This document shows, piece after piece, positions 26,431 to 32,224 of a stretch of 64,000 nt of DNA. Position 1 is the stretch's first letter. Every line of letters begins with the position of its first letter. Below the pieces are notes generated by a model that was not told the origin of the DNA, ran no database searches, and saw only the letters and a program-made list of their open reading frames with translations. The position numbers and the translations under genes are program-made. Source of the stretch: Arthrinium phaeospermum (lineage: Eukaryota > Ascomycota > Sordariomycetes > Amphisphaeriales > Apiosporaceae); NCBI GenBank assembly GCA_006503535.1, contig QYRS01000003.1:3038001-3102000 (forward strand), read 5' to 3'.

Positions 26431-27744
26431 TCAGTCAGAGGTCAAGTCGATGACCTTCTCGACTCTGCGCTTCTTCGACTCACCCGGGATAGGCGAGCCA
26501 TTCTCCTTCACAGGAGGCTCTCTCTTGTTGTGTTTGGCCCCGTTAGAACGAGGTTGCTCGCCACCCTGGGCGCTGGCGCGGGCGGCACGCTCCCGGTGGC
26601 CGACGAATCTCCGCTAGAACTTGTTGTTAATCATACGCTCAAAGACTTGAAGGTATACTATACGAGTCTACTTACGGGTTCAACCCCGAGGTCTCGGAGG
26701 CGCCCGAGCGCCTGCTCCCGCAATTGTCGTATGGTTCTGTCTGCGACGGCGGAAGTCGCCTGGGCACGGGCGGAATCTCGGCGGCAAGCGTCCTCAGCTT
26801 GCTTGAGTGCCTCGTTCTGCTCCTGTGTGATGATAGCCTCCTGGTAGAGACCCTCTGGTAGGCAACATGTCAGTAAGTTCAATAGCATGATACTTGTATT
26901 GAAGATGTACTAACCTCTTGAGCGGTAGGCGAACCGATAGATGGCAAGGGGGCCAGCGTCAGTGGACAGGCGCTTGACATCTCGGTAGCGGGGTGCGTTG
27001 ACGGCGCCAGGAGGAGACCTTTTAGATCATCAGTATACTTGGGCTTGGATAGATATTATCGACAGGAGAGTTGGCAATAGGTGCTTACGCCTGATCATCG
27101 CTGAACTCAGTTCCATGTGAAATGGCTCGGCCTTTCAAGGACTTCTCGGCAACCTCAGCAAGTCTTGTAGTGTCAGTGCCATTGCTGAAGTTGCTGCTTC
27201 CCAACTCCTCGACTCTGAAGACTCGGAGCTCAATGACTCCTAGATCGCGAACCTTCTCGCGTTCGTTCTCCGTGCGCCAGTTACAGTTATCATCAACTAG
27301 AAGTACCAATCAGAAAAAGGAACATGATTGGTGGTAACAACCAGGAGGGAAATTGTACTCACTGGTCGTGACTCCTGCAAACTTAAAGGCTTGCTTAACG
27401 ACAGTGCCATCGCGGGTTCTAGCGACTCGTTCCTTGATGTCAACTCTGAAGTGGCCGTTCTTTAGATTGTTCCCACGGCAGAGTTCGCCACGAATCCACT
27501 GGCCATCGATGTAGGCGGCGAGGTTCAGGGTGTGGGGCACGGGCTGCTGATGGTCATAGGTGGAGTTGACGCGCACATGGATCGTGAACTCCTCGCCATT
27601 GCGGCACTGGATGAACTTGCTTGACATCCGAGTACCATGTTCGCCGGACTCGTTGGAGTGGTCGGGATCAGCATATTCAAAAGCAGGCCGGCCACCGATC
27701 CAGATGGTGACCTCGATGGTACTGACTCCGTCAATGATAGCCAT
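26431..27744 (-). CDS. DUF7918 family protein with C-terminal NLS and SUMO-interacting-like motif
   Basis: Fungal-specific family of unknown function. Exons complement(26431..26613, 26676..26854, 26915..27018, 27089..27296, 27363..27744) give 351 aa, all phases closing. The N-terminal beta-rich DUF7918 domain starts MAIIDGVSTIEVTIWIGGRP, includes the conserved SKFIQCRNGEEFTIHVRVN and YIDGQWIRGELCR stretches, and continues through IELRVFRVEELGSSNFS. The fourth exon is a helical, coiled-coil-like stretch (QEQNEALKQAEDACRRDSAR). The tail is disordered and ends KKRRVEKVIDLTSD: a basic nuclear-localisation-like cluster directly followed by VIDLT, the consensus of a SUMO-interacting motif. That suggests a nuclear, SUMO-linked role, which is inference. 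The intron before exon 3 ends in AAAAG, a weaker acceptor. Confidence 0.85.
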
Positions 27745-29630
27745 TGTGGTGTAAGTTTGGCACAAGGGTTAGAGTATGGATAGGGGGTGTCCGGGTATAG
27801 ATCGGCGAATCGCAATCGATGTCGCAAATCGACGTCGATAAGGTGTTTGGTTCGCGGATGTGGAAGCCTGGTACAGAGCCGGATGCCACGGAGGAGGAGA
27901 TGCTCGATCCCAATATTGGTGTGGGATACCTATTGGCGAAGCACCGTCCACAAGAACGAGGTAGAAGAGAAAAGAGCTCAAATCCGTTGCCGCTTGCTCA
28001 AACCTGTTTGCGCGTACTTTTTGCTGCTGGGGGGTATACGGCCAACTTCAACAAGGCAAATCTGGCCGCACAGAGGTCGCAATAACTTGCCTTAAGCGGG
28101 CGCGATTTTATTATTAGTCTTGTCGTCGATCGAATCCGACGTCGAAGAGCGGAAAAGAGTCTGTAGTGTGTGGTGTGGAAGTGAATTCGACGGCGTATAG
28201 GCTGGTTGCTGTAGAGGGAAATCACCGCGCAGGTTCAAAGGATGCGATGAAATATACAGCGAAGCCGCGGCGTATTAGACAAAAAGTTGCGACTGAAGTA
28301 AAGATGCGACGGAGGTACTGAAAGAGAGCAGTGAATACTTCTTCGTTGCCTCGCAAAACTGAGTTGGCACAAAAAGGGCGCGACAGAAGGAATGGCTAGC
28401 GCTTGCGGTTGCCAGCAAAAGCCTGTGAACTGGATGGTCCTGGTGCCTCGAGATGGAACAAAAACAAGACGCGTTACCAGTTTCTGACCGTAGAGACTCT
28501 CCAAAGACCTTTGCGCAAGGCACCGCGATAGATTCTGGGTTGAGAGAGGTGAAGAAGAGAGGGCGAAGATGAGGCTTATACGGCGTCGACAGTAACCCTA
28601 AGACGACGGTGAATGTGACGGCGTATAGGAGGGAAACGTGACCTTCACTGCCAGTTGCATGCAATATGATCTTGATTATGGCACAAAGGCAAAATGTAAT
28701 TAGAATGGGAGAACAATTAACCAAGGGAAAGAAACTTGTTGCTGTGGTTGACAGATATCCTGTGGGTGTGCACTCGAAAGTGAACGGATGGTCAAGGTCA
28801 CGGATTTTTGCTGCGTTCAATGGTTATGTTTTGGGTACGTATTACTGAAAGGGCAAGTGCGGTCTACAAGAACTGTTATTATTTTTTTGGCAGGGCCGCT
28901 TCCTTCCTTTGCAGCCATACTGGTAGGCCACCTCTTTGCGGATTGGAAGGCACACCTCCCTGTGATCAATCTAATCTAATCTGGGTGCAGCTCTGTAGGG
29001 GAAACAGAGAATTCAGCCTCGTCACTTAATCTTTATTTATAAAGTGCTGAGATAGAAAGACATTCTTCTTTCTACAGAAGGGAAGGAGTAAATGCGGTTC
29101 ATTATAACTCCGTGTTGTATATTATAGTTCGGCGAGAGAACAATGGTGATGGTTTGTATCTCAGCGAAGAAATACAGACGATAATTTATGTTTCGGCGAA
29201 GGAAGTAATAGTGCTGCATTGCATTCACATTGCCAGGAGGCTAACCTCGTTTAACGACTGTTCTCGTATAAATAGAGCGAGAAACGGCAAGAGTTATCTG
29301 TTATTCTAAGTCAGCCCTGCCTGGGGAAAATGTTGCAACTTGGGAACTGCCAGGTTTTGCTTAATGTCTATTGAGTTTGCCCGGCCACCTAGACCTAGCA
29401 TCAGAGAAGGACAGGGCCTCTATAGTACTAGAAGAAATCAAGCGAGCAAAGCCCCAGGCTTGGCCATACATAAATGATCGACTACCTACATGTACAAGCC
29501 AACGACTCCCAAAGTTCGGTGTACAAGCTGTCTTCATAACATCTCGAGGGAGACGGCAGCAACATCATGCTCACACCTGTCCGTAAAAGCCAATAGTACC
29601 TAGCCAACCAACAGACAAGCCAAATCAGCA
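27745..29630. other. Intergenic, DUF7918 promoter to H3-mimic gene 3' end
   Basis: About 1.9 kb. It contains the DUF7918 promoter and the 3' flank of the H3-mimic gene. An open frame of 181 codons at 28275-28820 (-) has no family motif and irregular composition, so I do not call it. Nothing else is recognised. Confidence 0.45.
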
Positions 29631-31190
29631 TCAGCCCCATCGAGCCCGGTTCTCCCTGTCGTACACCGCCTCACTGTAGCCATTCCACTCTCGCTCCATC
29701 TCGCGCGCACTGATCTCACTGGTGGTCGACTGGCCCGGCAAACGCTCGCCGTAGAACTCGATGCCCTGAAAGTCAAGATAACCCTCGACGCGGCCACCGC
29801 CCAAGAACTTGATCCAGCCACGATGCGAGTTTCCATACATAATGGGGCCTTCATGCTCGCGACCACGCCAGATGAAAGATAGCTCATTGTTGGAGGATTC
29901 GTAGGGACGTTGGTCTAAGCGGAAGACACCCTCGACGATACCAAGGTCGAAACGACCCCAGAGGCTGCTGCCAGCAAGGGTGAGGACAAGGTCGAAGTCT
30001 TCGCCAACGTGAGGCCACCCTCCGGACACGTCCGGAGAGGCGATGTCATAACGGCCGTTGAGGAGGCCCAAAGGTTCGAGGCTCACAGGGCGTTCGTGTT
30101 CGACACTGGAATAGATGGTGTCCGAATACTCGGTGTAGGGCGGGGGCGGCTCGTCGTCAACATCCATAGGGTCGTTGTGGTAGCCATGACCCAGAGCACT
30201 GACAGGCCGGGCGGAGAACTTGCGGGCGGTTTGTTTGGTGCGACCACGCGGCTCTATACCTTGGGGAGGGCTCATGTAACCCTCTAGAGAGCCATCAAGA
30301 GCACTGACAGCGTAATAAGCGGATTTGCGAGCAGTCTGTTTGGTACGAGGCTTACGCGCCGCCTGAGGAGATGCCGCTGAAGCAGAATATGTGGGCTCCG
30401 GGGCCGTCGATTTCCCCTTGTTAGTTGCTGCCTTTTTGTCCTGAGCTGGCTTTGCCTTTGACTTTGGTGTGGCAGTCTCGGACTTGGATGATGATGCCTT
30501 CTCCTTTGCTGGCTTGGAAGAGGTAGCAGCTTTGGGAGTAGCATCCTTCGGAGGAGCCTTAGCCTTGCTAGCAGTGGGCTTGGATGCAGCCGCCTTCGGA
30601 GTAGCAGCTTTGGTCGCACCAACAGTCTTGGGAGTGGCCGCCTTAGAAGTTGTCGCCTTCGGGGTAGCAGCGGTGGTCTTCGCCTTCTTGGAAGCGCTCT
30701 GAGCTGACGATGTGGTGGCGGTGCCCTTGGAGACAGTAATGTTGATGCCGCCAACGCTGACCGTAACATCCACGCTCTCCTCGGCCTTTCTCTTGGCTCC
30801 GGTCTTCTTCTCGGCAGGTGTCGTGGTAGCGGCATTTGCTTTGAGAGCCTTCTTGGCCTCGCGGTCCAGCTTGGTCCATTCCTTCTTGAGTTCGCCCTCG
30901 AGCTTGGATACGTGAGCCGGCACCTTCAAAGCGCCACTGCCCGCGGCCTTGACGGCGTCGAACAAACGCATGCGCGCCACGGCCTTTGTCTTGGAGGGCG
31001 GCAGGCCATAGTGGACGAGCTGGGCCTCGAACCAGTGGGCCGGGTGGTCCTTGTCGCTGCCCGAGTCGAAGTGAGTCTTCAGCTCGGCCAGCGTGGCACG
31101 GCGGTGGCGGTTGTGACCCGAGGCTTCGGCATACAGATCGCCGTTAGCGAACGCGAAGCCGTCCCTCGCCACAGGGGGTACCGACGTCAT
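29631..31190 (-). CDS. Chromatin-like protein with two internal histone H3-tail mimics
   Basis: Single-exon gene, 519 aa. Family not named by me, but domain order is clear. Residues about 1-115 form a conserved-looking helical, SAP-like region (LAELKTHFDSGS, HWFEAQLVHYGLPPSKTKAV, KLEGELKKEWTKLDREAKK). Residues about 120-280 are Lys/Ala/Thr/Pro-rich with five ATPK units, like a histone H1 tail. Then come two H3-tail mimics: RTKQTARKS at 282-290 and RTKQTARK at 317-324, each followed after five or so residues by VSAL. These equal H3 residues R2-S10 and R2-K9. After an acidic Pro-rich linker (MDVDDEPPPPYTEY), a beta-rich domain of about residues 372-487 (LGLLNGRYDIASPD, LWGRFDLGIVEGVFRLD, GWIKFLGGGRVEGYL) resembles an orphan domain I associate with other fungal hypothetical proteins. 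A nuclear role and recognition by H3K9 or K4 writers and readers are inference. Divergent from DAD3. Confidence 0.85.
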   Translation of the reverse strand: MTSVPPVARDGFAFANGDLYAEASGHNRHRRATLAELKTHFDSGSDKDHPAHWFEAQLVHYGLPPSKTKAVARMRLFDAVKAAGSGALKVPAHVSKLEGELKKEWTKLDREAKKALKANAATTTPAEKKTGAKRKAEESVDVTVSVGGINITVSKGTATTSSAQSASKKAKTTAATPKATTSKAATPKTVGATKAATPKAAASKPTASKAKAPPKDATPKAATSSKPAKEKASSSKSETATPKSKAKPAQDKKAATNKGKSTAPEPTYSASAASPQAARKPRTKQTARKSAYYAVSALDGSLEGYMSPPQGIEPRGRTKQTARKFSARPVSALGHGYHNDPMDVDDEPPPPYTEYSDTIYSSVEHERPVSLEPLGLLNGRYDIASPDVSGGWPHVGEDFDLVLTLAGSSLWGRFDLGIVEGVFRLDQRPYESSNNELSFIWRGREHEGPIMYGNSHRGWIKFLGGGRVEGYLDFQGIEFYGERLPGQSTTSEISAREMEREWNGYSEAVYDRENRARWG

Positions 31191-31843: not shown

Positions 31844-32224
31844 ATGGACGCGCCGACCACGAACCCGCTCCTCGCGCCGCCGGAGCTCTCGCCGCTCGAG
31901 CAGGAGGTGCTCGAGGAGTACGAGCGCCTGGCCGAGAACATGAAGAATGTACGATCTTCTTATATGCCCGTCTTGTCCTGCCAATTGATCAATCGAACAA
32001 GGAAGGGAGAGCTGGTAGCTAATTGATTCCCCCATTCCACACAGCTCGCGACCGTCCTCGACACCATGGCCTCGCAGCCCACGACCGAGATCCTCGACGG
32101 GCTCCGCGAGCTCGAGCGCAAGACCAGCCTGGTCTTCACCCTGCTCAAGGCGAGCGTCTACAGCATCGTGCTGCAGCAGGAGATCGGCTGGGACCAGCAG
32201 CAGGGCAACGCCGGCCAGCACTGA
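31844..32224 (+). CDS. DAD3: DASH/Dam1 complex subunit DAD3
   Basis: Small subunit of the outer-kinetochore DASH ring, which couples kinetochores to spindle microtubules; fungal-specific and nuclear. Exons 31844..31948 and 32045..32224 give 94 aa, the usual length. Recognised from LSPLEQEVLEEYERLAENMK in exon 1 and TEILDGLRELERKTSLVFTL plus LLKASVYSIVLQQE in exon 2, which form the conserved helical core. The intron (96 nt) is phase 0 and falls between MKN and LATVLD. The tail WDQQQGNAGQH is variable. Confidence 0.95.

Follow-up and report, generated by a model that had tools for sequence, protein, structure and literature searches.

A repeated histone H3 tail-like motif with mostly arginine at position 9 in an unannotated family of fungal proteins

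Introduction

Short stretches that resemble the histone H3 tail have been described in non-histone proteins. ATF7IP, LIG1 and WIZ are reported to carry H3K9-like ARK mimics that are methylated by G9a/GLP and read by MPP8 or UHRF1 (PMC6172828, PMC10611923, PMC7585203), and the ATF7IP mimic is conserved among vertebrates (PMC6172828). The discussion in PMC7192584 attributes to Canzio et al. 2013 the auto-inhibition of Swi6/HP1 by an H3-mimic sequence. The ARKS proposal for SARS-CoV-2 ORF8 is contested, and its role in the nucleus is disputed in PMC10833455.

The protein considered here is encoded in a 64,000-nucleotide stretch of Arthrinium phaeospermum DNA, which we call the window. As far as these reports describe the known systems, it shares with ATF7IP, LIG1 and WIZ, likewise not histones, an internal stretch that resembles the H3 tail and is conserved among relatives. 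Those mimics centre on a methylatable ARK lysine, whereas the fungal family mostly has arginine there; the fungal match also differs in reaching upstream to R2 in almost half of the members and in occurring in tandem copies. As in Swi6/HP1, the internal H3-like stretch could keep the protein's own binding domain shut, but the window protein has no chromodomain by Pfam and the candidate internal partner is instead an acidic beta-barrel. A short H3-like motif in a non-histone protein is shared with ORF8, which is viral and has a shorter match. The titles and abstract openings listed for open-licence PMC papers contain no description of an RTKQTAR-type motif or of this protein family, and the only match there for KQTARR, ARTKQTARR, RTKQTARR or QTARRGG was ARTKQTARRSK used as an antibody test peptide.

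The family seems to present a genuine, if unusual, imitation of a histone, in which the core is kept and the silencing lysine mostly is not. Tandem copies that retain much of H3 2-8 with arginine usually in place of K9 would make a natural probe for readers of the unmodified, or K4/R8, side of H3, and the motif would give a testable handle on a family of fungal proteins that lacks annotation and whose members number in the hundreds (341 matches).

Sequences and predicted protein layout

Conservation figures cover the best-scoring matches: the best 120 of 341 and the best 120 of 298, which together with the window protein give 152 distinct sequences, the first set comprising 121 members. Five sequences (P0010, P0014, P0107, P0247 and P0270) were dropped from the charge counts, their C-terminal domain start not being recognised, and are also absent from the tree; both therefore cover 147 rows. 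The motif is represented by the peptide sequences PRTKQTARRSGAF and PRTKQTARKSAYY. Features of the locus are collected in Table 1.

Table 1. Features of the locus, in window coordinates
Feature	Position	Strand	Remarks
DUF7918 protein (PF25534)	27310..27765	-	Other flank of the 519-aa gene
Single-exon gene, 519 aa	29631..31190	-	One open frame; homologues of similar length
Residues 371-519 (C-terminal domain), modelled as a calycin-like beta-barrel of eight strands with terminal helices	29634..30080	-	
PPPPY, residues 348-352, PPxY-type	30135..30149	-	Downstream of acidic stretch
H3-tail-like copy 2, RTKQTARK, residues 317-324, then F325	30219..30242	-	
H3-tail-like copy 1, RTKQTARK, residues 282-289, then S290	30324..30347	-	Core conserved in homologues
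Second basic cluster KKAK, residues 168-171	30678..30689	-	
VDxTVxVGGINITVS-like stretch, residues 141-154	30729..30770	-	Modelled beta hairpin inside linker
Putative nuclear localisation signal: basic cluster KRKAE at residues 133-137	30780..30794	-	Inferred role; KR[KE][AREI] in 136 of 152 members
N-terminal domain, residues 1-123, SAP-like helix-loop-helix and long helix	30822..31190	-	
Divergent neighbour, beginning as DASH complex subunit Dad3 (PF08656)	31844..31948	+	Start codon of the 519-aa gene is about 650 bases away

The C-terminal beta-barrel is modelled confidently and the linker that carries the motif copies is modelled without structure. Up to the last motif the linker has a median charge of +25 and the segment after it one of -10 (134 of 147 members, those with QTAR before the barrel); the barrel itself has a median of -9 across the 147. 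Both lysines that bound the second basic cluster, K168 and K171, are almost invariant in the 121-row alignment. PP.Y occurs in 123 of the 152 members among the matches listed, and we take PPPPY to be a putative ligand motif for WW domains. The modelled hairpin, a stretch that many members keep, is similar to SUMO-interacting motifs or to strands used in oligomerisation.

Searches by sequence returned no known family: the window protein has none above cut-off in Pfam and NCBIfam, residues 1-123 match no Pfam family at E<=1, and a PDB sequence search with the 121-row profile gave nothing under E 0.8. Thirty family members searched against Pfam likewise gave nothing above cut-off; nine weak families appeared (best E 0.03), SAP not among them. 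Fold searches with the barrel returned retinoid- and fatty-acid-binding proteins, GID4, streptavidin and others, with scores at or barely over the tool's background, and the N-terminal domain gave weak SAP-type matches. The conserved basic clusters and these weak SAP-type fold matches suggest that the protein is probably nuclear and associated with chromatin or DNA.

The two copies in the window protein

The original prediction placed RTKQTARKS at residues 282-290 and RTKQTARK at 317-324, and the 519-aa frame reads exactly so; copy 1 is identical to H3 2-10. Its lysine register also stands on alignment, with K284 and K319 at H3K4 and K289 and K324 at H3K9, as does the phenylalanine (F325) that it noted in copy 2 where S10 would be. 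Copy 1 accordingly contains ARKS, a form of ARK[S/T], and copy 2 contains ARKF. Neither copy is followed directly by RGG. The 12 identities over 17 residues counted between the copies are correct, but the repeat unit of 17 residues proposed with them was dropped for one of about 30-31 residues, which is the prevailing spacing in the family; the interval in the window protein is 35. Five of the eight motif codons differ between the copies and every difference is synonymous, while the nine codons after the motif comprise five non-synonymous differences, one synonymous difference and three identities. If the copies are duplicates, the synonymous-only change within the motif indicates that it is held at the protein level.

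Motif conservation in the family

The top homologue among the matches listed is an Apiospora saccharicola protein that shares 84% identity along the full length. Named source organisms are mainly Apiospora, Xylaria, Hypoxylon, Daldinia and Pestalotiopsis, which we take to be Xylariales or their kin, and Fusarium, Trichoderma and Ophiocordyceps, presumably all Hypocreales. Two proteins from the chytrid Gaertneriomyces (P0037 and P0064; 46% and 44% identity) keep RTKQTARRG and group with Xylaria and Hypoxylon rows in the tree; they reflect either horizontal transfer or contamination.

Among the matches listed, QTAR is present in 138 of 152 members (239 copies), KQTAR in 112 (162 copies) and the complete H3 2-8 stretch, RTKQTAR, in 70 (81 copies); RTKQTARR is found in 58 members and RTKQTARK in eight. 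Fourteen members have no QTAR, 59 have one copy, 62 have two, 12 have three and five have four. Of the 101 gaps between neighbouring QTAR copies, 78 span 28-37 residues, and gaps of 30 or 31 are the commonest. The residues that precede QTAR vary more: of the 239 copies, 142 have Arg at H3 position 2, 102 have Thr and 68 have Lys at position 3, and 162 have Lys at position 4. At position 10, 124 copies have Gly and 68 have Ser. Some members have other residues in place of RTK (RPIQTARR, RFATPQTARR). Five Fusarium proteins (P0066, P0067, P0078, P0085 and P0095) split the motif, with one copy reading RTKQTAP (H3 2-7, no R8) and another reading QTARR without RTK.

The linker around the motif is otherwise variable, and the 5-mers present in the majority of first-set linkers (121) are QTARR, KQTAR, TARRG and ARRGG. 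The observed total in these linkers is 162 QTAR[KR] copies, whereas 200 composition-preserving shuffles gave 0.125 on average and never more than two. For RTKQTAR the observed total is 65 copies, and no shuffle produced any. Judged by these sequence comparisons, the motif and its repetition are a selected feature rather than a product of chance.

Position 9 and the family tree

The residue that would correspond to H3K9 is variable. Among the 239 QTAR copies, 182 have Arg there, 27 have Cys, 18 have Lys and seven have Asp, although the seven QTARD copies may not be the same motif. A FastTree tree was built on the two conserved domains, with 51 of its 144 inner branches drawn open. All ten rows with only Lys at position 9 lie inside one fully supported Apiospora clade of 11 rows. 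The remaining rows comprise 118 with only Arg, P0088 with one copy of each, five with other letters and 13 without QTAR before the barrel. One change between Lys and Arg is enough to explain this distribution; the simple reading is that Lys replaced Arg at the base of Apiospora, although the change count itself cannot polarise it. The presence or absence of RTKQTAR requires at least 39 changes on the same tree, so that R2-T3-K4 is labile and QTAR is not. Position-9 variability and the lability of R2-T3-K4 speak against the view that the whole stretch is strictly mimicked, and against K9 methylation as the mechanism of the family.

Methylation of K9 followed by recruitment of HP1, which the original prediction proposed, is therefore not supported as a family function, and a DIM-5/HP1 mechanism at that level is rejected on the variability of position 9. 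The prediction also looked to close orthologues to keep RTKQTARK, and here the outcome is divided. Of 13 Apiospora rows (P0001-P0012 and P0014, with P0010 and P0014 assigned by organism name because they are outside the tree, and P0005, P0008 and P0009 by their place in it), seven keep RTKQTARK, but P0006-P0009 keep both domains and QTARK and lose RTK. What survives of the overall claim is a selected, repeated H3-like motif in a protein with a nuclear or DNA-associated look; a conserved H3K9 mimic does not.

Possible roles of the motif

The reading that we favour, tentatively and from sequence evidence, is that a tandem short linear motif engages a factor that holds H3 residues 2-8, without K9 methylation. 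Conservation of the motif, with almost no copies in the shuffles, speaks for this reading, as do the synonymous-only change between the copies, the regular spacing, the few genome-wide occurrences, the charge layout and the variable position 9 of an unrelated AAA+ family (below). The linker that joins the SAP-like domain to the beta-barrel is basic and predicted to be disordered, and it bears up to four copies, usually one or two, at intervals of about 30 residues. The motif may be written [R/A]-[T/K]-K-Q-T-A-R-[R, in Apiospora K]-[G/S] and equals H3 2-8 in almost half of the members. Docking would most likely occur through Q5-T6-A7-R8, usually with K4, onto a factor that ordinarily binds the H3 tail, and tandem repeats would provide avidity. 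The factor might be recruited, or the protein might compete with nucleosomes for it; even an intramolecular lock is conceivable, with the protein's own acidic barrel as the putative partner. Both copies in the window protein are internal (residues 282 and 317) and do not form an Ala-first RTK start with a free alpha-amino group. Many H3K4 readers could not bind an internal site of this kind, which counts against the favoured reading, as do the lability of R2-T3-K4 and the 14 members that lack QTAR.

The main rival, which we consider appreciably less probable, is that the motif serves arginine methylation or nucleic-acid binding, with R8 (and R9) of QTARRGG and the ARGRI element acting as PRMT substrates or as DNA or RNA contacts. 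The likeness to H3 would then be convergent, perhaps through the context preferred by an H3R8 methyltransferase. Position 8 is Arg in 185 of 187 QTA[RK] copies in the first 121 members, the linker is strongly basic as far as the motif, and among the matches listed QTARRGG occurs in 78 of 152 members and ARGRI in 57. The presence of RGG and ARGRI beside the motif speaks for this rival and against an H3-tail partner. Such a role has no need to keep Q, T and A, however, and it leaves the full RTKQTAR in 70 of 152 members unexplained. Apiospora copies without RGG (ARKSA, ARKFS, ARKVA) nevertheless retain QTARK.

A basic nuclear-import signal or other transport motif is improbable. The motif is basic, lies in a region modelled without structure and is close to other basic clusters, but one of these, KR[KE][AREI], is separately conserved in 136 of 152 members among the matches listed, and import would not call for up to four regularly spaced copies. 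Q-T-A is not known as part of classical nuclear-import signals.

We give similarly little weight to a narrower form of the K9 mechanism, in which, in Apiospora at least, a DIM-5/KMT1-type enzyme methylates the position-9 lysine and the lysine then recruits HP1. The RTKQTARKS of copy 1 would suit it, and the genome has one chromo-shadow match above cut-off and one Pre-SET match that is partial and falls below the curated cut-off, so that the K9 machinery is probably present; its presence does not show that the window protein uses it. Against this mechanism, Lys at position 9 is the state of a single clade, ARK[ST] is found in just five of 152 members among the matches listed, and F or V follows K9 in the second copy and in several Apiospora relatives (ARKF, ARKV). 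It may be an Apiospora novelty. Least probable of all is chance identity without function: K, T and A are abundant in the linker and any famous motif could catch the eye, but the shuffle control, conservation in the members listed and the synonymous-only motif change disfavour chance for the QTAR core, although the H3 match outside the core could still be fortuitous.

Genome-wide search and an AAA+ ATPase with an H3-like start

A codon pattern for TKQTAR was searched in the 48.4-Mb assembly (19 contigs) and found at six places, against three for the backward control. Histone H3 accounts for one of the six, the window copies for two and the first exon of an AAA+ gene for another, while the remaining two look like chance. 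CenH3 was considered as a source of RTKQTARR and rejected: no second histone-like start was found, within the reach of an exact pattern that misses altered tails, and the match with Arg at position 9 is the AAA+ protein.

The 31-base first exon of the AAA+ gene (G000:C2:3977555-3977585; L008:556-586) reads MARTKQTARR. A predicted intron of 92 bases follows, and exon 2, from L008:679, carries the acidic stretch AAKYDYEDEES. Given removal of Met, the N-terminus of this protein would have a free Ala at position 1 followed by RTK. Two of its homologues have DUF7025 and AAA domains by Pfam; the protein is unrelated to the window-protein family and, with its H3-like N-terminus, constitutes a second, independent case. 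It is conceivable, though we consider it rather unlikely, that one H3-tail factor is shared by the two unrelated families, the tandem-motif protein and the DUF7025-AAA+ ATPase whose free N-terminus reads ARTKQTAR[RK], both of which would offer it the same residues of H3. H3-tail mimicry would then be a general device of filamentous fungi that does not rest on K9 methylation and that competes with nucleosomes or recruits the factor away from them.

Homologues of the AAA+ protein were taken as the best 120 of 200 matches. Among these 120, 115 start differently or are truncated, including the closest, P0122 (96%), and the Apiospora-like P0124-P0126; gene models easily miss short first exons. A start of MART or MMART is found in 11 of the 120, all within the nearest 26 relatives (a cut at 26 rows is arbitrary), and Met followed by ARTKQTAR in five. 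The five read ARTKQTARRTT in Apiospora arundinis, ARTKQTARKST (identical to H3 1-11) in Bisporella, ARTKQTARKR in Microdochium, and ARTKQTARRS and ARTKQTARGG in two Xylariales. Position 9 thus varies in the AAA+ proteins too, being R, K or G.
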